Shown here piece by piece: positions 4,380 through 20,297 of a stretch of DNA of 35,179 bases. The notes beneath the pieces were generated by a model, which saw nothing but the letters and a program-made list of their open reading frames with translations, did not search any database and was not told the origin of the DNA. Every line of letters starts with the position of its first letter. Position 1 is the first letter of the stretch. Location of the stretch: the NCBI GenBank assembly GCA_025454495.1, contig JALOOI010000009.1:1-35179 (forward strand). Reading direction: 5' to 3'. The position numbers and the translations under genes are program-made. The stretch is from Anaerolineae bacterium (GTDB taxonomy: Bacteria; Chloroflexota; Anaerolineae; Aggregatilineales; Phototrophicaceae).

Positions 4380-5813
4380 CTAATAGGCATACGGGCGTAT
4401 CTTCCACGCAATTTTCAAAATCTCCCAGCGATAGGCCAGCCCGCGCGGCTCGATGATGAGGAACAGCGCAATCGCCAGCCCGAACAGGGTGGGGCTGAGC
4501 GCCGCCTGAAGATTGACCGCGTTGATGAAAGGCAGCAGGGCGGGCAAAAAGCTGTTCAGGACGGGCAGCAGCGCCGGAATGAGGTACTGGCTGAGCAGGC
4601 TGATGAAGGTGACACCCATCACTGCCCCCAGCGGAAAGCCCGCCCCGCCGATGACCAGCATGGCCAAAAATTCAATCGACAGGGTGAGCGTAAATTTATC
4701 AATGGAGAGGGTGCCGGTATCAAACGCCCACAGCGCCCCGGCCAGCCCGGCATACAGCGAACTGAGGAAGAACGCCTGGAGCTTGTAACTGAAGACATTG
4801 ATCCCCAGCAGCTCGGCGGCCAGGTCATTATCGCGGATGGAGATGAAGGCCCGGCCTACCCGGCTGCGAATGATGTTGCGGGCGACCAGGAACATGAGCA
4901 CGGATACCGGCACAATGATGTAGTACATGGCATTTTGCTGCGAAAAATTCACCGCCTGGTTCACCCGCACATCCAGCCGGTACAGGGTATCGGCGGCCGG
5001 CTCGGCGGTGATGATGTAAATATCCTCCCCGCTGGCGATGAATTGCAGCCCGATCACATTATCCTGTCCGTCGGTGAGGGGCGTGGTGAGCAGCGTTTGG
5101 CCGCTGCGCGTGCTAACGCTGACGCGCGGCGCGGCACCGCTGGAAACAGTCGTCACCCGCACCACGTCCGAAAGAAAGGACGGGTTGCGCTGAAAGATGT
5201 AGCTGGAAGGGGTGCCATTGGTCACGCTGGCGGAATAATCGCTGTAGCTGCTGAATTCGATCAGCGGGGCGGGCACTTCCAGCGGGCGCGAGCCATTGGT
5301 CAGCGGCTCCAGCGGGTAGCGCAGCACCCAGGGGATGATGAACTGGGCGGCCAGGGTGGCCATGGCCAGGTAGAAGCCTTTCACCCGCAGCGACGGAATG
5401 CCGAACAACAGCCCGATCACCCCGGTGAACAGCGCCGCCAGCGGCACCGCCACCCAGAAGGGCAGCCCCAGTTCCCGCGCCATGACGGCCGCGCTGTAGG
5501 CACCGATGCCCATGAAAGCCGCGTGCCCCAGGCTGATCTGCCCGGTGTAACCCATGAGCATGTTGAGGCCCTGCACGGCGATGGCGTAAATGGCAATGCG
5601 GCTGATGAGTCCCACCCACAGCGTCGGCAGCGCCCCGATCTGGATGCTGTTCAGCCACGCGCCGATGGGCCCTTCGATGGTGAGCAGCGGCACCAGCAGC
5701 AGCAGCCCGAAGGCCAGCCACATTTGCCTTTTCTCGCCCCGCGTGCGGTTCAGGGCAATATCCTGGGTGTATTGCGTGTCAAAAACGCCCGACGGGCGAA
5801 TACTGGCAGCCAT
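4380..5813 (-). CDS. livM: Branched-chain amino acid-type ABC transporter permease LivM, with a large extra domain
   Basis: This 477-residue membrane permease is one half of the transport channel. Family motifs include LNMLMGYTGQISLGHAAFMG (about 83-102), GIPSLRVKGFYLAMATL (138-154) and, after the insertion, RSRVGRAFISIRDNDLAAELLGINV, the cytoplasmic EAA-like coupling loop. Between residues about 182 and 290 there is a polar, Ser/Thr-rich, beta-like segment of about 105 residues that usual LivM proteins do not have. By position it should face the outside of the membrane. The N-terminal 30 residues are polar. The start is the ATG at 5813 with AAGGA upstream. It lies 71 bases after livH and about 135 bases before the binding-protein start. 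Confidence 0.92.
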   Translation of the reverse strand: MAASIRPSGVFDTQYTQDIALNRTRGEKRQMWLAFGLLLLVPLLTIEGPIGAWLNSIQIGALPTLWVGLISRIAIYAIAVQGLNMLMGYTGQISLGHAAFMGIGAYSAAVMARELGLPFWVAVPLAALFTGVIGLLFGIPSLRVKGFYLAMATLAAQFIIPWVLRYPLEPLTNGSRPLEVPAPLIEFSSYSDYSASVTNGTPSSYIFQRNPSFLSDVVRVTTVSSGAAPRVSVSTRSGQTLLTTPLTDGQDNVIGLQFIASGEDIYIITAEPAADTLYRLDVRVNQAVNFSQQNAMYYIIVPVSVLMFLVARNIIRSRVGRAFISIRDNDLAAELLGINVFSYKLQAFFLSSLYAGLAGALWAFDTGTLSIDKFTLTLSIEFLAMLVIGGAGFPLGAVMGVTFISLLSQYLIPALLPVLNSFLPALLPFINAVNLQAALSPTLFGLAIALFLIIEPRGLAYRWEILKIAWKIRPYAY

Positions 5814-5884
5814 AAATAATCCTTCTTGTCAAAGCGGCGCATCGCGGCACCGCGCCCCCGGCGGCATCGACCGGGCCGGGGTAT

Positions 5885-7069
5885 TTAAATTCTTTCGATG
5901 CGCTTTTCGCCAAACAGCCCGTCCGGGCGCACCACCAGCACCAGCATCAGCACCACATACGGCGCGAGTTCGGTGCCGGCCTGCGTGCCGGGGAACAAAA
6001 AGTTCGCCCATTCCTGCACCAGCCCGATAATCAGCCCGCCCACCAGCGCCCCGCCGATGGATTCCAGCCCGCCCAGCAGCACGGCCGGGAAGGCCCGCAG
6101 CGCCAGCGCCGGCATATTCAGCGACAGGCTGGTGGCCCCGCCCTGCAACACCCCGCCGACCATGGCCAGCAGCGCCGCGATGCCCCAGGCAATCGCCAGG
6201 ATGAAGCGCACCCGCAGCCCCACCGACCGCGCCAGCTCCTGATTTTCGGCGGTGGCCCGCATGGCCAGCCCCACGCTGGTATAACGGAAGAAAGCCACGA
6301 AGGCCCCAAAGGCCACCAGCGCCAGAATGAAGGTGATGACCAGTTCCGTGCGGATGGTGATGTTGCCGTCGATGACATCTTCAAAGCGGATGGGCGTGGG
6401 AATGCCCAGGCTGTTCAGCCCGGCGAAAATTTGCAGCGGAATTTCCACGCTGCCCCAGGTCATCTGGGTGAGGCCCAGCATAATTTCGCTGACGGCCAGC
6501 GTCATGAGGACGGAGGCAAACAGCGGCTGGCCGATGAGGGGCCGAATGGCGAAGCGCTCCACACACAGCCCGATGAGCACCGCGCCCACCAGCCCGCCAA
6601 TGACCGCGCGGATCAACTGAAAGCCGCTGATCTGCACGGACAGCAGCGCCGTGAGCACCACCACCGCCACCGCGGCCAGCGCCAGGTTGCGCGGGTTTCG
6701 CAGGCTGTCGCGGCCGCCCATCGTCAGCACCATCAACGCCGTGGCCAGCACCAGCGCCCCGGCGGCCAGCGGGTTCACCTGGGCCACGCTGAAGAAGCTG
6801 TAAAACAGCATCGCCCCGAACAGCATCATCAGCCCGTGCGCGAAGTTGAACACGCCGGAGGCTTTGTTGATGATGACGATGCCCAGGGCGATGAGCGCAT
6901 ACACCCCGCCCACCAGCAGCCCGGTGACAGTGGTCATCATCATGCGCGAAACTTTTTTATCCACCAGCAGCGGTTGCAGCAGCAGCAGCGCCAGCACCAG
7001 CCCGCCCACGATCAGCAGCCAGCGCAGTTCGCGTTTGTAGCCCGTGTAAAAATTCGTCAATGCGGTCAA
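5885..7069 (-). CDS. livH: Branched-chain amino acid-type ABC transporter permease LivH (enlarged)
   Basis: This 394-residue membrane permease is the partner of LivM. Family features are GLLVGGVYALIALGIVIINKASGVFNFAHG near the N-terminus (from about residue 50), ERFAIRPL, the coupling loop TSVGLAMRATAENQELARSVG, and FPAVLLGGLESIGGALVGGL near the end. It is longer than the roughly 300-residue norm: about 80 mostly hydrophobic residues, including GGRDSLRNPRNLALAAVAVV, sit before ERFAIRPL and probably add two helices. An extra N-terminal helix (about 16-35) is also present. The start is a TTG at 7069 with AGGGAAA about ten bases upstream; this choice is moderate because a second in-frame TTG follows three codons later. 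The gene is 48 bases after the acyl-CoA synthetase gene. Confidence 0.92.
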   Translation of the reverse strand: MTALTNFYTGYKRELRWLLIVGGLVLALLLLQPLLVDKKVSRMMMTTVTGLLVGGVYALIALGIVIINKASGVFNFAHGLMMLFGAMLFYSFFSVAQVNPLAAGALVLATALMVLTMGGRDSLRNPRNLALAAVAVVVLTALLSVQISGFQLIRAVIGGLVGAVLIGLCVERFAIRPLIGQPLFASVLMTLAVSEIMLGLTQMTWGSVEIPLQIFAGLNSLGIPTPIRFEDVIDGNITIRTELVITFILALVAFGAFVAFFRYTSVGLAMRATAENQELARSVGLRVRFILAIAWGIAALLAMVGGVLQGGATSLSLNMPALALRAFPAVLLGGLESIGGALVGGLIIGLVQEWANFLFPGTQAGTELAPYVVLMLVLVVRPDGLFGEKRIERI

Positions 7070-7117
7070 AGTTATTTTCCCTGTAATAAATGATCTATGA
7101 CCTCAAAAGTGGCCGTT

Positions 7118-9154
7118 TTACAGCGGCCACACGTTCAGCAGGGTTTCCACCACAGCCGTCCGCCCGTCGCGGTATTTCACTTCCGCCCGCACCTGCACCG
7201 AGTCGCGGTCGCCGTACATGGCTTCCAGGATGTCGCCGTATTTTTGCGTCAGGGTGCGGCGCTTCAGCTTGCGCGTGCGCGTCAGTTCGCCTTCGTCGGC
7301 ATCGAAGGCTTTATGCAGGATGACGAATTTCCGCAGCCGGCTGAATTCTGGCAGGCTGGCATTCACGCGCTCCACATCGGCACGGATGAGCTGGGCCACT
7401 TCGGCCTTTTGCGACAGATCGACCATGGTGGTGAAGCTGATGCCGTTTTTCTCGGCGAAGCGGGCCACATTATCAAAATTGATGACGATGATGGCCGTCA
7501 CATAGGGCATGTCAAAGCCGCCGATGGTCATAATATCCTGGATGAAGGGGCTGAACTTCAGGCGGCCTTCGATGTACTGCGGGCTAAAGCTTTGCCCGGT
7601 GGACAGTTCGATCATATCCTTGACGCGCTCCAGGTATACCAGGTGCCCGTCGCTGTCCATATAGCCGGCATCGCCGGTGTGGTACCAGCCTTCTTCGTCC
7701 AGCACTTCGCCGGTTTTATCCGCTGCTTTGTAGTAGCCGCTAAAACGGGCTTCGGTACGCACCAGAATTTCCTGGTCTTCGGCAATTTTCACCTCCACCC
7801 CCGGCACGATCACCCCCACAGTGCCCAGTTTGACATCGCCGGGGATGTGGATGGTGACGTAAGTTTCCGTGGAGGCGTAAAGCTGGCGCAGTTCTACCCC
7901 CAGGGCGCGGAAGAAGCGGATGACATCCGGCGAGAGCATGGCCCCGGCGGTGAGGACGTTGCGGGCCCGCACCAGCCCCAGTTTATCGCGCAGGGGCTGG
8001 AAGACGGCCAGCTCTCCCAGCCAGCGCAGCAGTTGCAGCGTGGGCGGCACCGCCTGGCGATTGTCCTCCAGGTCGATGATGCGATACGCCACCGGCATGA
8101 ACCATTCAAACAGCTTACGGTTAATCCACAGGCTGTCATTCAGCCGGAAGCGCACCTGCCCGGCCAGGTTTTCCCACACGCGGCTGGGGAACAGCAGCCC
8201 CACCGGGGCAATCTCGCGGATGTCAATGGGCACGGTCATGGGGCCTTCGGGAAAATTGACCTGCATCCCGAACATGAGATGCGGCGTAAAGCCAAAGGCC
8301 TGTTCCGTCAGCCAGGCCATGGGGCTAAACGACAGCCAGTTATCCTGGTGGGTGACGCGGTTATAATCAAAATTCATGATGCTGCCATAGGTCAGTTGAT
8401 GATTCGTCACCATGGCGAATTTGGGCAGGCTGGTGGTGCCAGAAGTCATGCTGAGGACGATGCAATCTTCCGGCTGCGTTTCCTCAATGAGCCGTTCAAA
8501 CAGGTGCGGATGGGTTTTCTTATAATCCGCCCCCAGTTCTTCAATATCGGCAAAGCTGGCCAGCCAGGGGTCTTTGTAATTCCACAGGCCGCGGTCTTCC
8601 CAGTAGATGACGCGGCGCACCTGGGGCAGTTGGTCTTTGATGGCCAGCGCTTTATCCACCTGTTCCTGGTCATGCGCCACCAGGAAGGTGGCATCGGTTT
8701 CGGTGAGGGCGTACAGAATATCGCTGGCGGTGGCATCCGAAAAAATGGCGCAGGAACGGGCGCGGGCGCTGTGCGTGGCGATCTGCGTCCAGTACATTTC
8801 CGGGTCATTCTCGCCGATGACGGCCACCGTTTCGTGGGCCCGCAGCCCCAGGCTGACCAGGCCCAGGCAAAAATGGGCGACATGCGTATACACCTCATCC
8901 CAGGTGTATTCCTGCCAGATGCCGTAACGCTTTTTACGCATGGCGATGCTGTCGTGCAGTTCGCGCACGCGCAGCAGAAAATTTTTGGGCAGCGTGTTGC
9001 GGTCTTCGGTGGGGTAGGGTGGCGCTTCCTGCTGCATCCGGCTGCGGTACACGGTGCCTGGTTTGGTGGGGCGATGCACCACGCCGTCCACCAGGGTCCG
9101 CAGGCGGCTGCCCTGGGCCGGCGCGGCCGGGGATGGTTGGGTAATGGCTGCCAT
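7118..9154 (-). CDS. Long-chain acyl-CoA synthetase-like AMP-forming ligase (FadD15 type)
   Basis: This 678-residue cytoplasmic enzyme should convert a carboxylic acid, ATP and CoA to acyl-CoA, AMP and pyrophosphate. The catalytic motifs are intact: P-loop MTSGTTSLPK (236-245), YASTET (426-431), YHTGD (491-495), the YLERVKDMI hinge (507-515), and LTRTRKLKRR (624-633) with the C-terminal lysine. The length and overall motif spacing match the large long-chain acyl-CoA synthetases. The ATG at 9154 has a GGAGG ten bases upstream. It follows livG by only 5 bases, and ligases of this kind are repeatedly seen between livG and livH in other bacteria. I infer that it activates the acid imported by the transporter, but chain length or aromatic preference cannot be read from the sequence. 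Confidence 0.9.
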   Translation of the reverse strand: MAAITQPSPAAPAQGSRLRTLVDGVVHRPTKPGTVYRSRMQQEAPPYPTEDRNTLPKNFLLRVRELHDSIAMRKKRYGIWQEYTWDEVYTHVAHFCLGLVSLGLRAHETVAVIGENDPEMYWTQIATHSARARSCAIFSDATASDILYALTETDATFLVAHDQEQVDKALAIKDQLPQVRRVIYWEDRGLWNYKDPWLASFADIEELGADYKKTHPHLFERLIEETQPEDCIVLSMTSGTTSLPKFAMVTNHQLTYGSIMNFDYNRVTHQDNWLSFSPMAWLTEQAFGFTPHLMFGMQVNFPEGPMTVPIDIREIAPVGLLFPSRVWENLAGQVRFRLNDSLWINRKLFEWFMPVAYRIIDLEDNRQAVPPTLQLLRWLGELAVFQPLRDKLGLVRARNVLTAGAMLSPDVIRFFRALGVELRQLYASTETYVTIHIPGDVKLGTVGVIVPGVEVKIAEDQEILVRTEARFSGYYKAADKTGEVLDEEGWYHTGDAGYMDSDGHLVYLERVKDMIELSTGQSFSPQYIEGRLKFSPFIQDIMTIGGFDMPYVTAIIVINFDNVARFAEKNGISFTTMVDLSQKAEVAQLIRADVERVNASLPEFSRLRKFVILHKAFDADEGELTRTRKLKRRTLTQKYGDILEAMYGDRDSVQVRAEVKYRDGRTAVVETLLNVWPL

Positions 9155-9159
9155 AGGGG

Positions 9160-9927
9160 TTAGCCCTCCTGCCCAAGATACGCTTTGATGACGCGCTCAT
9201 TCTGCCGAATTTCGTCCGGGGTGCCTTCGCCGATTTTTTCGCCAAAATCCAGCACCACGATCCGATGCGAAATATCCATCACCAGGCCAATATCGTGCTC
9301 AATGAGCATGATCGTCGTCCCCTGGCGCTCGTGAATGTCCAGGATGAAGCGGGCCATATCCTCTTTTTCTTCCACGTTCATACCGGCCATCGGTTCATCC
9401 AGCAGCAGCAGGCTCGGCTCCACCGCCAGCGCCCGCCCCAGTTCCACGCGCTTGCGCAGCCCGTAGCTGAGCGCCCCCACGCGCGATTTACGAATGCTCT
9501 CCAGCTCCAGGAAGTCGATGATGTCTTCCACGCGGCGGCGATGGGCGATCTCTTCGCGCTCGGTGTGCCCTTTGAACAGGGCGGCCGTCAGCAAATTGGT
9601 GGTCATGTGGATGTGCCGGGCGGCCATCAGGTTATCCAGCACGGTGGCGTTGGTGTAGAGGGCGATGTTCTGGAACGTGCGCGAAATGCCCAGGCGGGCC
9701 CGCTGTGAGGGGGGAATGCGGTTCAGGCTGCGGCCTTCCAGCAGGATGTTGCCTTCCTGCGGATGATAAAAGCCGGTGATGCTGTTGATGAGGCTGGTTT
9801 TGCCCGCGCCATTGGGGCCGATGACGGCCAGAATTTCGCCATCGTAAACATCGAATTGAATATTACGCAGGGCTTTGATGCCGCCAAAGCGCAGCGAAAC
9901 ATTCTGAATTTGTAACTTTGCCGGCAT
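9160..9927 (-). CDS. livG: Branched-chain amino acid-type ABC transporter ATP-binding protein LivG
   Basis: This 255-residue ATPase has exactly the usual LivG length. Walker A is GPNGAGKTS (37-45), with the following NSITGFYHPQEGNI and the GISRTFQNIAL stretch typical of LivG. The signature region reads LSYGLRKRVELGRAL, with Tyr in place of the second Gly-neighbour of the canonical LSGGQ. Walker B is LLLLDEPMAGM, and MLIEHDIGLVMDIS carries the H-loop. The ATG at 9927 was preferred over in-frame codons up to 9972 because MPAKLQIQNVSLRF aligns with family N-termini and GAGG lies eight bases upstream. It is the first gene of the seven-gene operon; direct repeats lie in its upstream region. Confidence 0.93.
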   Translation of the reverse strand: MPAKLQIQNVSLRFGGIKALRNIQFDVYDGEILAVIGPNGAGKTSLINSITGFYHPQEGNILLEGRSLNRIPPSQRARLGISRTFQNIALYTNATVLDNLMAARHIHMTTNLLTAALFKGHTEREEIAHRRRVEDIIDFLELESIRKSRVGALSYGLRKRVELGRALAVEPSLLLLDEPMAGMNVEEKEDMARFILDIHERQGTTIMLIEHDIGLVMDISHRIVVLDFGEKIGEGTPDEIRQNERVIKAYLGQEG

Positions 9928-9975
9928 AAACGAACCTCGTAAAAAAGAATGTACTTTGTAGTGCTGACGCAATTT

Positions 9976-11397: not shown

Positions 11398-14300
11398 TTA
11401 TTCGCGGCGCTTCATTTTATCACGGACGGCCTGGAGTTTGTCCCGCGAGAAATCGTGCTGCGGGTTCAGTTGCAGCGCCCGCCGGAAGGCGCTTTCGGCT
11501 TCTTCCAGGCGCTCATGATGATCCAGCGCTTCGCCATAATTGTGCCAGAACCACACCTCACCGGGATCATATTTCACGGCGTGCTGGTAGCACACCAGCG
11601 CTTCCTCCCAGCGATGCAGGGCCGCCAGGCACATGCCTTTGCCGTTCCAGGCCCAGGCGTAGGTGGTATCCAGCGCCAGCGCCTGATGATAACTTTCAAT
11701 GGCGGTATCGAAGCGATACAGGCGGCGCAGCACCTGCCCGCGGCGGGCCCACACGGTGGGGTTATGCGGCGCGATGGTCAGCGCGTCTTCGGTGGTTTTC
11801 AGCGCCTCTTCGCGCCGGCCCATCTCCAGCAGCACCACCACCCGGTTGATGTAGTACCAGGTGACGGCCGGCTCCGCCTGGATCGCCTGATCGTAACTGC
11901 TGACGGCTTCCTCCAGCCGGCCCAGTTCGCGCAGGGTTAGCCCGCGCCCGTTCCAGGCCCAGCCCGACCGGGCATTGAGGCGCACGGCTTTGTTGTAGGC
12001 GGCCAGGGCTTCTTCCAGCCGCCCCAGGGTTCGCAGCACCTGGCCATATTTCATCCAGCTTTCGGTGTGCTGCGGGTCGGCTTCCAGGGCGCTGGAGAGC
12101 GCTTCGGCGGCCTGTTCGTTTTCGCCCAGGTGCATCAATTCTTCGGCATAATTATGCCAGTACCACACGTCCCGGTCATCCAGCGACAGCGCCACCTGAA
12201 AGCAGTAGAGGGCTTCTTCGTGCTGGTTCAGGGCGCTCAACGTCAGCCCGCGCCCGCTCCAGCCCCAGGCGTAATCCGGCTCCAGTTCCACGGCGCTGGT
12301 ATAGCTTTGCAGGGCTTCGTCCAGCCGGTTCAGCCGGCGCAAAATTTGCCCGTGCTTGGCCCAGATGTGGGCGCTGCGGCTGTTCAACCGCAGGGCGCGT
12401 TCCAGCGCCTGCAGGGCCTCGTCATAGCGATGCAGGGCAATCAACACATCCGCCTGGCGATAGGGGTAGGAGGGCTTATCCGGCTCATGGAGGGCGGCCT
12501 GCTGGTAAGCGTGCAGCGCTTCTTCGTACTGTTCGCCGGCTTCCAGGGCGATGCCCAGTTCATTCCATGCCCAGGCATAATCCGGCGTGAGGTCGGTGGC
12601 CTGGCGCAGGGCGGCCAGCGCGTCGTCCAGCCGGCCCATGCTGCGTAAAATGCTGCCATGCAGCGCCAGGCTGCGGGCATAGGTGGGGTTGATGGCGATG
12701 GCCTGTTCCAGCAGCGGCAGGGCTTCGGCGGTGCGGTTCAGCAGGTGCAGCGCGTTGGCCTGGTTGTAAATGTACCAGTCGCGGCCCGGGTGCAGGGCGG
12801 CGGCCTGGCGGTAGCACGTCAGCGCTTCCTCGTAGCGGTGCAGTTGTTCCAGCACCATCCCCTTACCGTTGATGGCCCAGTCAAAATGTTCATCCAGCTC
12901 GATGGCCCGTTCATAGGCATCCAGCGCTTCGGGGAGCTGGCGCAAATAGCGCAGCACCTGGCCCAGCTTGCCCCAGGACATGGCATGAAGCGGATCAACG
13001 CGGGTGGCTTCGCGGGCGGGGGCCAGCGCGTCCTGGTAGCGGCGCAGGTCAACCAGGGTTTCCGCCAGGTTGTACCAGTGCCACACGATCTCCGGCTGGT
13101 AGCGGGTGGCCCGCTTAAAGCTGAGGATGGCATCGCTGGTGCGGCCCAGGCTTTTCAGGGACAGCCCGCAGCCGTTATGCGCCCAGGCGTAATCCGCCTG
13201 GAGGGCAATAGCCCGTTCATAGGCCACGACGGACTCTTCATAGCGGCGCAGGTGGCGCAAAATTTGCCCGATGCGGGCATGGCTGTTGGCATGGCGCGGA
13301 TCCACCTTCAGCCCGCGCTGGAGCATGGTGATGGCTTCTTCGCGCTGGCCCAGTTTGTCCAGCAGGTCGCCCCGGTTGTACCAGTACCACACGTCATTGG
13401 GGTTTAGCTCGGTGGCGGTGGTGAAGCAGGTGATGGCCTCCTGCGGGCGGCCCAGGCGATCCAGAATGATGCCGCGGCCGTTGTGGGCCCAGGCGTAATC
13501 TGGCTGGATGGCCAGCGCTTTATCATAACAGGCCAGGGCTTCTTCGTGGCGTTCCAGCAGGCGCAGCGTGCGGGCCCGCCGGGCCCAGGCCCAGGCGTAA
13601 TCCGGTTGCAGGCTGATGGCCTGGTCATAGGCGGCCAGCGCTTCTTCCAGCCAGCCCAGTTCCGTCAGCGAATAGCCTTTGTCCATCAATTCCCGCGCCT
13701 GAAGCTGGATGCCATCCATCTCCAGCGGCGGCAGGGTGCCAATCTGCGCCACGTAAATATCGGAGAGCGTGGTGACGATCTCCTGCCAGGACTGCGGGCG
13801 CTCGGCGGGTTTTTTGGCCATGCAGCGCAAAATGAGCGTTTGCAGCGCGGCCGGCATGGGCTGCGGCAGATCGGGGATGATGACGGGCTGGCGGGTGTGG
13901 GCTTCGCGCCAGGCTTTTACCCCGTGGGCCTGAAAGGCATGGCGGCCCACCACCATTTCATACAGCACCGTGCCAAAAGCATAAATATCGGAACGGCTGT
14001 CCACCTGGCTGGCCGTCTCGAACTGCTCCGGGGACATGTAGGGCGGGGTGCCCACCAGGGCATTCAGGCGCGTTAGCCGGGCATCGCCTTCGCCCGCGTC
14101 GCCGGCATCGCCGCCTTCCGGCAGGCGGGCCAAATCCAGCGAGCGCACCAGCCCAAAATCGGTAATCTTGGCGATGCCGTCATGCGTCACCAGCACGTTG
14201 CCGGGCTTAATATCGCGGTGCACCAGCCCCGGAATTTTGCCGGTGGCGTGCTGCATCCCCAGGGCGATGTGCAGCCCGAATAACAGGCTGTGCCGCAGCG

Positions 14301-15450
14301 TCAGCCGGTTATGGTCGATCCAGCTACGCAGGTCTACGCCCACATTTTCCATCCCGCTGATGTGCTCCAGGAAAATATAGGGGCGCTGTTGAATTTTCTG
14401 GGCCAGCTTGGCATGGACGATGTGCGCGTGACGATCCAGCTTAATCCACAGGTAGGCTTCCTGTTCAAAGCGGGCGACGGCTTTTTCATTGTCCAGAAAG
14501 CGGCGCTGAAAGGTTTTGATGGCGATGGGTTCGCGCTTTTCGTGATCGTAGCACAGGTACACCACGCCCATCCCGCCGCTGCGCACATCCACAATTTCGT
14601 AGCGGTCTTCCAGGCGCTGGCCCACCCGGAATTCGCCATCGTCAGCGGCCTGGCCGGCCCGCACCGGCTTGAGGCTGATCTGGCGGGCGGGGCTGCTGCC
14701 GGGCGCTTCTTCCATGGAGGTAAATTCGCCGTGGGGAATTTCGACACTTTCGCCGGCCTTGGTTTCGGACACCGGCGCGGGCGGCGGCTGCGGCTCCACA
14801 ATGGCCGAGGAAGCCGCTTCGCCGGACGGCTTAAGCCGCGTTTCGGACACATCGCTGAACACTTCGGCGTTGCCCGCGCCGGCGCGGGTTTCGCGGCTGG
14901 TGGCCACCGAATCGAACTGGGTTTCATCCGACGTGCTGCCGGAGAGGGTGCTTTTGCCGGGGCTGGCGTAGGCCTGCAACAGGCGGGCCCGGCTGCGCTC
15001 CGGGACGGTGGGCGCGGGCAAATCGTCGCCTTCATCCGCGGCGATCACCCACAGCGCCACCGCCAGGTTGCGCTGCGAGGGGTAATCCAGCGCCATACGG
15101 ATGACCCATTCGCCAAAAGCATCCATGGCGCGGCGGGCAAAGGTGCGGTCAACATCGTTTTTGGCCATGGCCAGCGCCCGACCCCAGGCGATGAGGACTT
15201 TGCCGGCGTAAAAAATGCGCAGGCGATTTTCCTGGCTTTGCACGCGCCCGGCGCACAGGTCGCCGAGCCAGAAGTAATAATCAATATTGTTCAGCCGCAG
15301 CGCCAGCCGGCCGGTTTCGCTGATGTCCGGGGCGGGGTCGGTGGCGAAAGGATCGCTTTTATCGCCATCATGGCGCTGGCGCAGCAGGCGGCGGAGTTCT
15401 TCCTCACTGGCGAGGAGGGGGCGGCGACCGGTCTGGGGTGGTTTTATCAT
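11398..15450 (-). CDS. Serine/threonine protein kinase with 22 C-terminal TPR repeats
   Basis: This 1350-residue cytoplasmic protein has three parts. Residues 1-150 form a helical region of unknown type, followed by a Ser/Pro/Glu-rich linker (about 150-275). The kinase domain spans about 284-565: glycine loop RSGGMGVVY (290-298), Lys312 in IAIKTF, catalytic HRDIKPGN (411-418), DFG (431-433), and GTPPYMSPEQF (467-477). All catalytic residues are present, and the activation loop carries an extra Gly/Ala/Asp-rich insert (446-457). From 585 to 1332 there are 22 contiguous 34-residue TPRs, then an 18-residue cap. No membrane segment is seen. The ATG at 15450 has GCCAGG directly abutting it, a poor ribosome-binding site, so the start is less certain. 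The FHA and hydrolase genes follow closely; clpC lies upstream behind a terminator. Confidence 0.93.
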   Translation of the reverse strand: MIKPPQTGRRPLLASEEELRRLLRQRHDGDKSDPFATDPAPDISETGRLALRLNNIDYYFWLGDLCAGRVQSQENRLRIFYAGKVLIAWGRALAMAKNDVDRTFARRAMDAFGEWVIRMALDYPSQRNLAVALWVIAADEGDDLPAPTVPERSRARLLQAYASPGKSTLSGSTSDETQFDSVATSRETRAGAGNAEVFSDVSETRLKPSGEAASSAIVEPQPPPAPVSETKAGESVEIPHGEFTSMEEAPGSSPARQISLKPVRAGQAADDGEFRVGQRLEDRYEIVDVRSGGMGVVYLCYDHEKREPIAIKTFQRRFLDNEKAVARFEQEAYLWIKLDRHAHIVHAKLAQKIQQRPYIFLEHISGMENVGVDLRSWIDHNRLTLRHSLLFGLHIALGMQHATGKIPGLVHRDIKPGNVLVTHDGIAKITDFGLVRSLDLARLPEGGDAGDAGEGDARLTRLNALVGTPPYMSPEQFETASQVDSRSDIYAFGTVLYEMVVGRHAFQAHGVKAWREAHTRQPVIIPDLPQPMPAALQTLILRCMAKKPAERPQSWQEIVTTLSDIYVAQIGTLPPLEMDGIQLQARELMDKGYSLTELGWLEEALAAYDQAISLQPDYAWAWARRARTLRLLERHEEALACYDKALAIQPDYAWAHNGRGIILDRLGRPQEAITCFTTATELNPNDVWYWYNRGDLLDKLGQREEAITMLQRGLKVDPRHANSHARIGQILRHLRRYEESVVAYERAIALQADYAWAHNGCGLSLKSLGRTSDAILSFKRATRYQPEIVWHWYNLAETLVDLRRYQDALAPAREATRVDPLHAMSWGKLGQVLRYLRQLPEALDAYERAIELDEHFDWAINGKGMVLEQLHRYEEALTCYRQAAALHPGRDWYIYNQANALHLLNRTAEALPLLEQAIAINPTYARSLALHGSILRSMGRLDDALAALRQATDLTPDYAWAWNELGIALEAGEQYEEALHAYQQAALHEPDKPSYPYRQADVLIALHRYDEALQALERALRLNSRSAHIWAKHGQILRRLNRLDEALQSYTSAVELEPDYAWGWSGRGLTLSALNQHEEALYCFQVALSLDDRDVWYWHNYAEELMHLGENEQAAEALSSALEADPQHTESWMKYGQVLRTLGRLEEALAAYNKAVRLNARSGWAWNGRGLTLRELGRLEEAVSSYDQAIQAEPAVTWYYINRVVVLLEMGRREEALKTTEDALTIAPHNPTVWARRGQVLRRLYRFDTAIESYHQALALDTTYAWAWNGKGMCLAALHRWEEALVCYQHAVKYDPGEVWFWHNYGEALDHHERLEEAESAFRRALQLNPQHDFSRDKLQAVRDKMKRRE
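11455..13698 (-). repeat. 22 tandem TPR-coding repeats with a three-repeat (about 306 bp) super-period
   Basis: The 34-codon units occur without gaps from residue 585 to 1332 of the kinase. From the third unit on they fall into three alternating classes: A (AWAxNGxGxxL), B (VWYWYNxxxxL) and C (AxSWxKxGQxLRxL). The order A-B-C recurs six times and ends with a further A-B (7 A units). The first two units are B-like and C-like. Confidence 0.9.
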
Positions 15451-15575: not shown

Positions 15576-17948
15576 TTACTCGGCACCGGCCCCGGTGCGG
15601 GCCCGAAAATCAATGGTATTGTCGGCGGTACGCAGCGCCACGATGGTATCGCCGGCCTGAAAGCGATCTTCCACGATGGCGCTGCTCAGCGGCCGCGTCA
15701 GCATTCGTTCCACCGCCCGCCGCAGCGGCCGGGCCCCGTTCACCGGGTCATAACCGGCATCCAGAATCAGGCTGCGGGCTTCGTCGGTCAGTTCCAGGCG
15801 CATCTTCTGGGTGGACAGGCGCTGATGCAGATCGCGCAGTTGCAAATCCAGAATGCCGCTTAAATCCTGGCGCGTCAGCGAGCGGAAAGTGACGACTTCA
15901 TCAATCCGGTTGAGGAATTCCACCCGGAAGAACTGGTGCAAATGCGGCGAAAAATCCGGCTCGGCATCGTCCATTTTGCCAAAGCCCATGCTTTTGCTGT
16001 TCTCGCGGGTGCCCACGTTGCTGGTCATGATGAAGACGGACTGCCGGGCATCCACCGGGCGGCCGTGCGCGTCGCTGAGGCGGCCGTCGTCAAAAATTTG
16101 CAGGAACAGGTCGAACACTTCCGGCGCGGCTTTTTCGATCTCGTCCAGCAGCACCACGCTGTAGGGGCGGCGGCGCAGCGCATCGGTCAACTGGCCGCCG
16201 CGGCTGCTCTCTTTGTAGCCGGGGGGCGAACCAATGAGGCGGGCGACGGTGTGCGCGTCGTGAAATTCGGACATATCCAGCCGGATGATGGCTTCTTCGG
16301 TGCCGAACATGAAGGCCGCCAGCGCCTGGGCCAGTTCCGTTTTGCCCACGCCGGAGGTGCCCAGGAACAGGAAGACACCAATGGGACGGTTGGGGTCATT
16401 CAGCCCGGCGCGGGCCGTCTTAATGGCATCTGCCACGATCCGCACCGCCCGATCCTGCCCGATGACCCGCGCCCGCAGCGCCGGTTCCAGCCCGGCCAGC
16501 CGCCGCCGGTCATCCTGCGTTAGCTCGGTGACGGGGATGCCCGTCCATTCGGACAGCACGCCGGCAATATCGGATGCCTGCACTTCCAGTATTTCGCCGG
16601 TGTCATCCGGCGCGACGGTGCGAATGGTGACGCGGGTGCAGGCTTCATCCAGCAAATCCAGCGCTTTATCCGGCAGGCGCTTATCCGGCAGGTAGCGCAC
16701 CGACATATGCACGGCGGTATCAATGGCGGCGGGCTGGATGGTCACTTTGTGATGCAGTTCCAGCCGTTCCCGCTGCCCGCGCAGGATGGTAATGGCATCT
16801 TCTTCCAGCGGCTCATCCACATCAATGGTGCGAAAGCGGCGGGCCAGCGCCGGGTCCTGGGCGATGGCGCGGCGGTATTCTTCGTGGGTGGTGGCCCCGA
16901 TGCACATAATTTCGCCGCGGGCCAGCGCCGGTTTAAGGATGTTGGCCGCATCCAGATTGCTATCAATGGTATCGCCCGCGCCGACGATGGTGTGAATTTC
17001 GTCGATGAACAGGATGATGGTGCCGGAGCGCTTCACTTCGTCCACAATGCCAATCAGGCGCTCCTCGAACTGGCCGCGCAGGCTGGTACCGGCCACCAGC
17101 GTCCCGATCTCAATTTGCACGATGCGCTTGTTCAGCAGCGGGGCGGGGGCGGTTTTGCGGTGGATGGCATAGGCCAGGCCTTCCACGATGGCCGTTTTGC
17201 CCACGCCGGCATCGCCCAGCAGCAGCGGGTTGTTCTTTTTGCTGCGGGCCAGCGTGCGGGCCACCGCGCGAATTTCGGTATCGCGGGCGACGGCCTCGCC
17301 GATGCGCCCGGCCGCCGCCTGGGCCGTCAGGTCGCGCCCGTAACGATCCAGCAGCGGGGTCATCGGCAGGCTGCTGCTGTCCAGCCGCGGCCGCGGCGGC
17401 ACCAGTTCCGACTCCGAAAAATCCAGCCCGATGTCACTATCACTTTCCCACAGGTTATCCACATCATCCGGGATGCCCACCGGCGGGTGCTCTTCGTCGT
17501 GCTGCTCGCTGATGAGCCGCTGCAACCACAGATTGAGGTCAAAGCCCATCTCCACCAGCTTACGCACCGGCACGCCTTCGCCTTCTTGCAGCAGCGCCAT
17601 CACCATCTGGTCTTCTTCCACCACGGCCCGGTTATCCTGCTCCGCCAGGAAGATGGACAGCGACAGCACCATGGCCGTGCGCGGGGTGAGGGGCAGCACT
17701 TCGCCCACCGGCCCCTCAGAAGTGCCCACCTCGCGGCGAATTTCGTTGCGTACCTGGCGCGGATTCATCTCCGCCCGGCGCAGCAGCTCGCAGGTGAAGC
17801 CGTTTTCATTGCGCGTGGCGGCAATGAACAGATGTTCCGTGCCGATGTAATTATGCCCCAGGCGGCGGGCTTCATCGGCCGCTGCATTCAGCAGGGCGGT
17901 GCAGCGCTCACGGATCTCTTTTTCGGGAATATCGGGTGAAGGTGTCAA
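15576..17948 (-). CDS. ClpC-like AAA+ unfoldase lacking the middle (M) domain
   Basis: This 790-residue Hsp100 ATPase has a Clp N-domain (about 7-145), AAA1 with Walker A GDAGVGKT (245-252) and Walker B ILFIDE (312-317), and AAA2 with Walker A GTSGVGKT (530-537) and Walker B VVLLDE (598-603), plus the C-terminal D2-small region with NGARPLRRAVERML. The tripeptide MGF (654-656) stands where the ClpP-binding loop of ClpA/ClpC lies, so it probably feeds substrates to ClpP. Between LLDEACTRV (432-440) and ASDIAGVLSEWTGIPV (458-473) only about 17 residues remain, so the coiled-coil M-domain that ClpC uses for adaptor control is absent, as in ClpA. The start is a TTG at 17948 with GAGGAAG five bases upstream. 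A terminator follows the gene. Calling it ClpC or ClpA is partly a matter of convention. Confidence 0.92.
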   Translation of the reverse strand: MTPSPDIPEKEIRERCTALLNAAADEARRLGHNYIGTEHLFIAATRNENGFTCELLRRAEMNPRQVRNEIRREVGTSEGPVGEVLPLTPRTAMVLSLSIFLAEQDNRAVVEEDQMVMALLQEGEGVPVRKLVEMGFDLNLWLQRLISEQHDEEHPPVGIPDDVDNLWESDSDIGLDFSESELVPPRPRLDSSSLPMTPLLDRYGRDLTAQAAAGRIGEAVARDTEIRAVARTLARSKKNNPLLLGDAGVGKTAIVEGLAYAIHRKTAPAPLLNKRIVQIEIGTLVAGTSLRGQFEERLIGIVDEVKRSGTIILFIDEIHTIVGAGDTIDSNLDAANILKPALARGEIMCIGATTHEEYRRAIAQDPALARRFRTIDVDEPLEEDAITILRGQRERLELHHKVTIQPAAIDTAVHMSVRYLPDKRLPDKALDLLDEACTRVTIRTVAPDDTGEILEVQASDIAGVLSEWTGIPVTELTQDDRRRLAGLEPALRARVIGQDRAVRIVADAIKTARAGLNDPNRPIGVFLFLGTSGVGKTELAQALAAFMFGTEEAIIRLDMSEFHDAHTVARLIGSPPGYKESSRGGQLTDALRRRPYSVVLLDEIEKAAPEVFDLFLQIFDDGRLSDAHGRPVDARQSVFIMTSNVGTRENSKSMGFGKMDDAEPDFSPHLHQFFRVEFLNRIDEVVTFRSLTRQDLSGILDLQLRDLHQRLSTQKMRLELTDEARSLILDAGYDPVNGARPLRRAVERMLTRPLSSAIVEDRFQAGDTIVALRTADNTIDFRARTGAGAE

Positions 17949-18161: not shown

Positions 18162-20297
18162 ATGTCCTCCAATGACCCGTTGATCGGGAAAAAACTGGGC
18201 GATTATCTGATTGAGGGAATACAGGGCACCGGCGGCATGGCGCGGGTTTACCGCGGCTTTGATGAAAAGCTGGAGCGCTACGCGGCCGTGAAAGTGATTG
18301 AGCCTCAACTGATCGCCAGTGCAGAGGAGGAGGAATACCGCGAGCGTTTCCTGCGCGAAGCGCGTTCCATCGCCCGCTTAAGCCACCCGCGCATCGTGGG
18401 CATTTATCAATTCGGGCAGTATGACAGCCTGTATTACATTGCGATGGAATATATTGAGGGGCGCAACCTGCGCGAAATGCTGAAAGGCTACGCCCGCGAA
18501 GAAGGCTACCTGCCCCCGCCCACCGCGCTGCAAATTCTGGAAGATATTGCCGCCGCGCTGGATTATGCCCATCGTCAGAACATCATCCACCGCGATGTGA
18601 AGCCCTCCAACATCATCGTCAACAGCGAAGGCAATGCCATCCTCACCGATTTTGGGCTGGCGTTGAATGCGCTGGAAGGCACCATCGGCAATACCTTCGG
18701 CAGCGTGCATTATATTGCCCCGGAGCAGGCCATTTCGTCGGCGCAGGCCGTGGCCCAGAGCGATCAATATTCGCTCGGCATCATCGCCTATGAGATGTTC
18801 ACCGGCCGCGTGCCCTTCGACGATGCTTCGGCGATGAGCGTGGCCCTCAAACACATCAGCGATCCGCCGCCGCCCCCGCGCGATGTGAACCCGGCGATCC
18901 CGTCCGAAGTGGAACGGGTGTTGATGAAGGCGCTGGATAAAGACCTGCACAAACGCTATACCACCTGTGCCGATTTTGTGCGGGCGCTGCAAAATGCCTA
19001 TGCCACCGCCGGCAGCGAACCCGCGCCGCTGACGGCCGCGCCGCGTAAAGACCGTACCACCGCGTCCATTCCGCGCCCGGTGCCGGCCGGCAAAGACGGC
19101 GAGGACGACGCGCCCACCATCACCGATACGCGCAGCCGCCCGGCCAGCCTGGCCAGCCGCGCCGAAGCGGATGGCAAACCGGCGGCGGCTCCGTCCACGA
19201 ACAGCCGGACCGGGCTGCTGGTGGTGGGGGCGCTGCTGCTGGTGCTGGTCATCGCCGGCGTGGTGGTGCTGCCCGGCCTGCTCACGCCGCCGGTGGATGT
19301 GGGCGCAACTGCCACCGCCGATGCGGCCGCGGCGCTGGTGGCGCTGGCCGGTACGGCCACCATGCAGGCGCAGGAAGAACTGGCCATCGCCGGCACGACG
19401 AGCGCCCGCCAGACAGAGACGGCCGCCGCGCAGTTGACGGCCGATGCCGCGGCCGCGCAAACGCAAACCCGCACCGCGGCCGATGCCGTGCTGACGCAAA
19501 CCGCCCAGGGCACGGCGCAGCAGCAGTCCACCGAAACCGCGCAGGCCATCATCGAATCGGCCATTGGGGCCACCGCGGCCGCCCGCCAGACGCTGACGGA
19601 AGCAGCGCGGGCCGCGGCTTCACAGACGGCGGCGGTCGAAACTGCCACCGCGGCCGCGCAAATCGTCCCGCCCACGGCCACATCGTCGCCCACCGCCAGC
19701 TTGACCCCCACCGATACGCCGTCGCCGACACCTTCGCTCACCCCCACGCCGACGGAGACCCCCACGGCCACCTTTACGCCCAGTCCCACGCTCACGCCGT
19801 CCAGCACGCCCACCTTTACCCCCACGCCCACGCCGGGCCTGGACATGCTGAATGCGGATGATGCCCGGGTGCTGCTGGTGTACGATGGCCGCGGCCTGGT
19901 GCTGTACAATCGTGATCGCCGGAATTTGACTTTCGCCGAGCTGACCGACCTGGAAATTCATCTCTATGAGCTGAATGAACAGGGCGAAATGGCCGAAGCC
20001 TTCGTCTTTGAAGCCTCGTCGTGGAATGTCGCCAGCCGCGGCCTGTCCGCCGGTAACTGCCTGCTGGCGTTTGATACCAGCGCTTTCCGCCAGTACCCGC
20101 CGGGTGAGCCGCCCACCGATATTTGCCGGCTGATCTCGGCGTTTCGCGGGCTGCGCCAGGCCTTCTGGCTGAGCAGCAGCGCCCCCCAGGGGGCCTATTT
20201 TGAAGTGCGCCGCGGCCCGGTGGATGTCATCGCCACCTGCCCGGCCATCATCCCGCAGACGCGCAGCCAGCGCCGCTGCCTGGTCAATTTACGCTGA
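18162..20297 (+). CDS. Transmembrane serine/threonine protein kinase with Thr/Pro-linked ectodomain
   Basis: This 711-residue protein has a cytoplasmic kinase domain (about 14-280): GTGGMARVY (22-30), Lys44 in AAVKVIE, HRDVKPSN (143-150), DFG (163-165) and APE (186-188), all intact. A Pro/charged juxtamembrane region follows, then one membrane helix (350-374, GLLVVGALLLVLVIAGVVVL). Outside the cell come an Ala/Thr/Gln-rich stalk (about 381-502), a TPTPT-type linker (503-558), and a compact C-terminal domain (559-711) beginning LDMLNADDARVLLVYDG with four cysteines (633, 655, 693, 706) that could form two disulfides. It lacks PASTA repeats. The domain's ligand is unknown to me. The ATG at 18162 has only a weak GGGAAA upstream. 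A terminator follows 7 bases after the stop; clpC is divergent. Confidence 0.93.
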   Translation: MSSNDPLIGKKLGDYLIEGIQGTGGMARVYRGFDEKLERYAAVKVIEPQLIASAEEEEYRERFLREARSIARLSHPRIVGIYQFGQYDSLYYIAMEYIEGRNLREMLKGYAREEGYLPPPTALQILEDIAAALDYAHRQNIIHRDVKPSNIIVNSEGNAILTDFGLALNALEGTIGNTFGSVHYIAPEQAISSAQAVAQSDQYSLGIIAYEMFTGRVPFDDASAMSVALKHISDPPPPPRDVNPAIPSEVERVLMKALDKDLHKRYTTCADFVRALQNAYATAGSEPAPLTAAPRKDRTTASIPRPVPAGKDGEDDAPTITDTRSRPASLASRAEADGKPAAAPSTNSRTGLLVVGALLLVLVIAGVVVLPGLLTPPVDVGATATADAAAALVALAGTATMQAQEELAIAGTTSARQTETAAAQLTADAAAAQTQTRTAADAVLTQTAQGTAQQQSTETAQAIIESAIGATAAARQTLTEAARAAASQTAAVETATAAAQIVPPTATSSPTASLTPTDTPSPTPSLTPTPTETPTATFTPSPTLTPSSTPTFTPTPTPGLDMLNADDARVLLVYDGRGLVLYNRDRRNLTFAELTDLEIHLYELNEQGEMAEAFVFEASSWNVASRGLSAGNCLLAFDTSAFRQYPPGEPPTDICRLISAFRGLRQAFWLSSSAPQGAYFEVRRGPVDVIATCPAIIPQTRSQRRCLVNLR

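Follow-up and report, generated by a model that had tools for sequence, protein, structure and literature searches.

The window, that is, the whole stretch of 35,179 nucleotides that was analyzed (contig JALOOI010000009.1 of an Anaerolineae bacterium), carries on its minus strand a gene coding for a kinase with a long tetratricopeptide repeat tail (kinase-TPR), flanked by genes for a ClpA-like unfoldase and an FHA-domain protein. Upstream to downstream of kinase-TPR, the features are as follows.

18162..20297 (+), PknB-like kinase, divergently transcribed, often kept beside the Clp gene
15576..17948 (-), ClpA-like double AAA+ unfoldase of 790 aa, upstream of kinase-TPR
11398..15450 (-), kinase-TPR gene, open frame of 1350 aa (Pkinase PF00069, E 2e-33; TPR_1 PF00515, E 8e-130)
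14956..15438 (-), N-terminal domain (aa 5-165), predicted helical, conserved in orthologues, without any Pfam match
14644..14955 (-), variable disordered linker (aa 166-269), pLDDT <50, poorly conserved
13753..14619 (-), Hanks-type Ser/Thr kinase domain (aa 278-566), catalytic residues intact
13495..13698 (-), TPR cap units 1-2, neither A, B nor C
13189..13494 (-), ABC block 1, units 3-5
12883..13188 (-), ABC block 2, units 6-8
12577..12882 (-), ABC block 3, units 9-11
12271..12576 (-), ABC block 4, units 12-14, missing in a 19-unit relative (L170)
11965..12270 (-), ABC block 5, units 15-17
11659..11964 (-), ABC block 6, units 18-20
11455..11658 (-), terminal A-B, units 21-22, followed by a C-terminal helix
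10978..11391 (-), FHA-domain protein of 137 aa, 6 bp downstream of kinase-TPR (PF00498, E 5e-12)

The 25 best Pfam matches of the kinase-TPR protein were to kinase, TPR, and TPR-like families only. All the hallmarks of a Hanks-type Ser/Thr kinase (catalytic Lys, HRD, DFG, and activation segment) are present, the invariant residues in the orthologue alignment being K312, H411-R412-D413, and D431-F432-G433, and the kinase looks active as far as its sequence tells. Dozens of further kinase-domain matches were found in the genome from which the window comes.

The tail consists of 22 gapless units of 34 aa with the TPR consensus, predicted as helix pairs by AlphaFold2 (aa 585-1332; window 11455-13698, minus strand). 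Two cap units are followed by three unit classes in the order A, B, C, repeated six times, and then by a last A and B. The coordinates of the array are exactly those given in a preliminary description of this DNA, and the six A-B-C rounds plus A-B and the 102-aa period claimed there were confirmed. In a self-comparison of the array, the mean BLOSUM62 score was 1.61 per position at an offset of 102 aa versus 0.81 to 1.00 at 34, 68, 136, 170, 238, and 272 aa, and it was likewise high at 204, 306, and 408 aa. Permutation of the 20 classed units gave a z value of 10.3, with none of 100,000 shuffles reaching the observed value, which rules out a chance order. Average-linkage clustering without labels divided the B units into two clusters and left no unit out of class order. 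Thus, the class order goes beyond that of ordinary TPRs, as the preliminary description held, and the signatures it gave for the classes were also recovered (W2, N5, and G6 in A; W2, Y5, and N6 in B; W4, K/R6, Q9, and R12 in C).

Among orthologues, z ranged from 8 to 11 when the full 22-unit array was scored. The control arrays, which were those TPR arrays of the same phylum picked up by the searches, mostly had |z| values of <2.7, so that the ABC order is not a general habit of the TPR proteins of the phylum. The exceptions were L091 and L094 (genomes G417 and G423; open frame of 962 aa), which have a weaker three-unit periodicity (z of ca. 4.5) and a peak at an offset of 204 aa, possibly from a six-unit block duplication. 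A different pattern was seen in L084 (genome G218; open frame of 2254 aa), whose long TPR array has a period of two units (z2, 4.2).

The TPR positions most informative about class were 2, 3, 5, 6, 9, 12, and 34. In TPRs generally, the most variable positions, exposed on the concave face, are 2, 5, 9, 12, 13, 33, and 34, while peptide contacts in HOP involve positions 2, 5, 6, 9, 12, and 13 (PMC1261162). The eight-position concave set takes six of the seven class-informative positions (P = 1.4e-4, an indicative value given that the seven were chosen from the same data). At the contact positions, identity among the consensus units was 0.54 within a class and 0.06 between classes, versus 75% and 67% for the structural positions and 0.55 and 0.46 for the remaining surface positions. 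The classes therefore differ almost only at ligand-contact positions, as judged by canonical TPR numbering. Orthologues also conserve these positions more strongly than the remaining ones (0.79 versus 0.57; P = 2e-18), which is the reverse of the TPR norm, where contact sites vary most. In the pooled orthologues, A units had W2 in 95%, A3 in 94%, N5 in 83%, and G6 in 85%; B units had W2 in 83%, Y5 in 64%, N6 in 85%, D/E9 in 79%, and H34 in 69%; and C units had W4 in 95%, A5 in 84%, K/R6 in 91%, Q9 in 80%, R12 in 99%, and Y34 in 81%. The placement of the class residues on the ligand-contact face, proposed in the preliminary description, thus holds by canonical numbering and across the order. 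Its further statement that one face of the superhelix repeats every three TPRs is imprecise: a TPR superhelix has about seven to eight units per turn, so equivalent sites three units apart spiral round its inside and do not line up.

Structure prediction with AlphaFold2, fed with a 33-row alignment, gave a continuous TPR solenoid (mean pLDDT, 96.5; pTM, 0.68). The nearest solved fold was the TPR superhelix of OGT (1w3b; Z, 35.9; rmsd, 4.8 over 388 residues), and a BBSome subunit and designed consensus TPRs were also close. Sharing a fold with OGT does not by itself show function. OGT and SPINDLY (GT41) are, like kinase-TPR, enzymes fused to a long TPR superhelix, and they hold the backbone of the substrate peptide by Asn residues at inner-layer TPR positions 5 and 6 (PMC9715652). 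The Asn residues of classes A and B occupy these same two positions (N5 in 83% of A units and N6 in 85% of B units), where Asn is not typical of C units, and might amount to a GT41-like ladder. However, the Asn of the GT41 proteins is mostly at position 6 along the array, whereas here N5 is confined to class A and N6 to class B, and the enzyme is a kinase, the 25 best Pfam matches including no GT41 catalytic domain. We know of no three-unit classes in the TPR arrays of OGT or SPINDLY.

At the DNA level, units of the same class were 53% identical and those of different classes 46%, with no change with distance along the array. Tandem Repeats Finder reported no 306-bp array in the DNA, where short matches of 60 to 75% at 306-bp spacing remain. 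Hence, the periodicity was clear in protein (102 aa) and only faint in DNA (306 bp). The low and flat same-class identity, together with the negative Tandem Repeats Finder result, rules out recent block copying. Relatives of the kinase-TPR protein occur throughout the order (97 of 154 genomes in a scan with the N-terminal and kinase parts). Those in the alignment (33 sequences including that of the window, covering all 22 units with indels of only 1 to 3 residues) were 49 to 70% identical to the window protein, the broader figure being 48 to 70% overall. Exactly 22 units were found in at least 43 relatives, ten of them counted directly outside the alignment; therefore, no block copying is going on now. 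The best match of a unit of the window was the same-place unit of the relative in 515 of 704 comparisons. This correspondence and the coverage of all 22 units in the relatives indicate, from sequence comparison, that the array was complete before these families split.

The number of units varied in the divergent family f7, with 22 in G546, 19 in G543 and G545, 18 in G541, G048, and G053, 15 in G547, and 13 in G042 (some units without a score in the scan were assigned from their spacing). The 19-unit array of L170 maps to units 1-11 and 15-22 of the 22-unit frame and lacks exactly one ABC block (12-14), a clear case of the three-TPR step in copy number that the preliminary description had named as support for block copying. 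The 13-unit form corresponds to two caps, three ABC blocks, and A-B, with weak class order, while the 18- and 15-unit forms are one unit off the three-step rule. L170 (z, 5.2) and two of the three 18-unit forms (z, 4.4 and 3.8) had a significant class order, and the order was weak (z, 0.9 to 1.7) in the 13-unit, 15-unit, one 18-unit, and one 19-unit members. L170 thus supports three-unit copy-number steps, with exceptions. The proposed growth of the array by copying blocks of three fits this step, but no such copying is visible today and the 18- and 15-unit forms break the rule. In a free tree, f7 was placed at the base, and f7 as a single clade was not rejected (p-AU, 0.84); this topology fits either a gain or a loss of ABC blocks. 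In the wider class, we found only more distant kinases with other repeats, none of which showed ABC order or had the cognate Clp or FHA gene beside it. Some of them (L190 and L193-L198) had repeat hits spaced 40 residues apart, not 34, perhaps of another repeat type.

Throughout the order, family f7 included, the genes are found repeatedly in the arrangement Clp, kinase-TPR, FHA. Counting as cognate a Clp match of over about 480 bits (generic Clp paralogues scored ca. 350 to 370), we found the Clp in all 97 kinase-positive genomes and in only 5 of the 57 kinase-negative ones among the 154 scanned, which are related, so that the counts are not independent. These five were G002, G028, G468, G471, and G544, the first four being fragmented or incomplete assemblies in which the kinase may be missed. 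Kinase and Clp were lost jointly in most of genus g17, in genus g19, in G014 and G058, and in families f2, f5, and f6, and both were kept in G006, G010, and G003 despite lying far apart or on different contigs. Within g17, G510 (8.5 Mb) had both genes and the other listed members had neither. The linkage to Clp and FHA, missed by the preliminary description, is the best clue to function; neighborhood and co-inheritance indicate a common pathway, which is not the same as contact. The divergent PknB-like kinase (18162-20297, plus strand) has a long low-complexity region and is possibly part of the same pathway. Downstream, at 4380-9972 (minus strand), there are genes resembling the branched-chain amino acid ABC transporter genes LivG, LivH, and LivM and an acyl-CoA ligase gene, linked to the cluster only in some relatives. 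A defense system was discarded, PADLOC hits being generic kinase, TPR, and AAA matches.

Besides a Clp_N domain, the Clp neighbor has two AAA+ domains whose Walker motifs are intact. Judged by its length, it would lack the long middle domain of ClpB, a resemblance to ClpA. An (L/M/I)GF tripeptide was present in 17 of 17 aligned Clps, and a loop of this GF type is where Clp ATPases dock on ClpP (PMC8745299). Clp_N, two AAA+ domains, and this loop together place the protein in the ClpA/ClpC type. The genome has one ClpP match, and the presence of this protein and of a docking-type loop makes the Clp neighbor a putative ClpP partner. The core of the FHA domain (GR, SRxHA, and NGT) is conserved in the downstream protein.

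The components have several counterparts in known systems. The nearest analogue of the triplet is found in PLS-class PPR proteins, helical arrays of ordered triplets of distinct motif types that act in RNA editing in plant organelles (PMC5066490); their L and S motifs have 35-36 and 31 aa, respectively, whereas all units here have 34 aa and the TPR consensus and belong to a bacterial kinase, so that membership of this class was rejected. Bacterial Hanks-type kinases with TPR tails also join a PknB-like kinase to TPRs, but none of those tested outside the orthologue group had a comparable ABC order, and no class-level relative had the cognate Clp-FHA neighborhood. In type VI secretion, a kinase (PpkA), an FHA protein (Fha), and a Clp-type ATPase (ClpV) act together. 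However, nothing at the kinase-TPR locus points to a secretion apparatus, and the Clp has a ClpP-type loop; its score against the TssH/ClpV model TIGR03345 was 667 bits, below the cutoff of 885. Neither TPR super-repeats nor this kinase-Clp-FHA set was found in the literature searched, which included few subscription journals. TPR, kinase, Clp, and FHA are known kinds of protein; what seems new against that literature is the three-class super-repeat with class identity confined to the contact face and its tie to Clp and FHA.

We tentatively favor, with a confidence that stops a little short of even, kinase-TPR being a phosphorylation-controlled substrate receptor for the Clp unfoldase, with about six near-equivalent peptide sites of three TPRs each. 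The tail would be a superhelical receptor of ancient origin, with an inner groove that recurs in steps of three TPRs. Asn5 of the A units and Asn6 of the B units would probably fix the main chain of a polypeptide in extended form, and Trp2, Tyr5, Gln9, and Arg12 would make class-specific side-chain contacts. Given some six near-equivalent sites, the putative ligand is probably long and repetitive or has several copies of one motif. The N-terminal kinase would then phosphorylate either a partner or the client held by the array. The phosphothreonine might be the docking site of the FHA protein, and the ClpA-like AAA+ protein could unfold the client and pass it to ClpP. We infer the receptor half of this model from sequence statistics and published structural precedent, and the kinase/FHA/Clp half from gene linkage and co-inheritance. 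Not every member seems to need exactly six sites in a strict geometry, since members of f7 with weak class order still keep Clp and/or FHA neighbors. Nor do we favor an exact correspondence between the six blocks and a hexameric Clp, given that the block number varies in f7.

The same periodicity could have other causes. We consider it rather unlikely that the array serves as a scaffold along some periodic structure, be it a filament, an array protein, or a protein carrying regular motifs, and is read out as a signal by the kinase, with Clp as a target or regulator in the pathway and not as a partner to which clients are handed. Class-specific contact residues recurring every 102 aa and a kinase that looks active would suit such a role, and there is a precedent in nebulin, where simple repeats make up a larger unit believed to fit the period of its partner (PMC7109182), albeit with a different fold, a seven-module unit, and a muscle filament. 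However, the conserved neighborhood offers no obvious periodic partner, the block number varies in one family, and the tight co-inheritance with an unfoldase would be left unexplained. It is less probable still that A, B, and C are packing classes, with Trp2, Trp4, Tyr34, and their neighbors alternating for a fixed superhelix that has no repeated ligand site. Although the classes also differ at positions 3 and 8, outside the contact set, and the aromatic-rich signature could pack between neighboring A helices, structural positions are barely class dependent (0.75 versus 0.67) and contact positions almost completely so (0.54 versus 0.06), and polar or charged residues (N5, N6, K/R6, D/E9, Q9, and R12) are among the most class-specific ones, with R12 in C conserved at 99%.

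Least probable by far is a frozen relic of block duplication without functional periodicity. The 19-unit relative that lacks exactly one block and the faint 306-bp period of the DNA are what such a relic might leave behind, but its similarity would have decayed evenly over positions, whereas the contact residues are near-invariant in relatives 48 to 70% identical while same-class DNA identity is 53% and flat. Returning to the receptor model, one more specific version of it is possible, if doubtful: the three unit types may form a repeating triplet for recognition, a TPR equivalent of the P-L-S triplets of PPR proteins. The inner groove would then follow a periodic polypeptide in register, and the array would serve a kinase-controlled Clp unfoldase module, specific to one order of Anaerolineae, as its receptor.

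The array is a natural template for the design of long TPR superhelices with repeated peptide sites. Since its contact positions are class specific, near-invariant, and periodic, the hypothesis of a repeated ligand can be put to the test directly with a single soluble protein. That kinase-TPR is inherited together with Clp and FHA points to an undescribed link, in Chloroflexota, between Ser/Thr phosphorylation and regulated unfolding or proteolysis.
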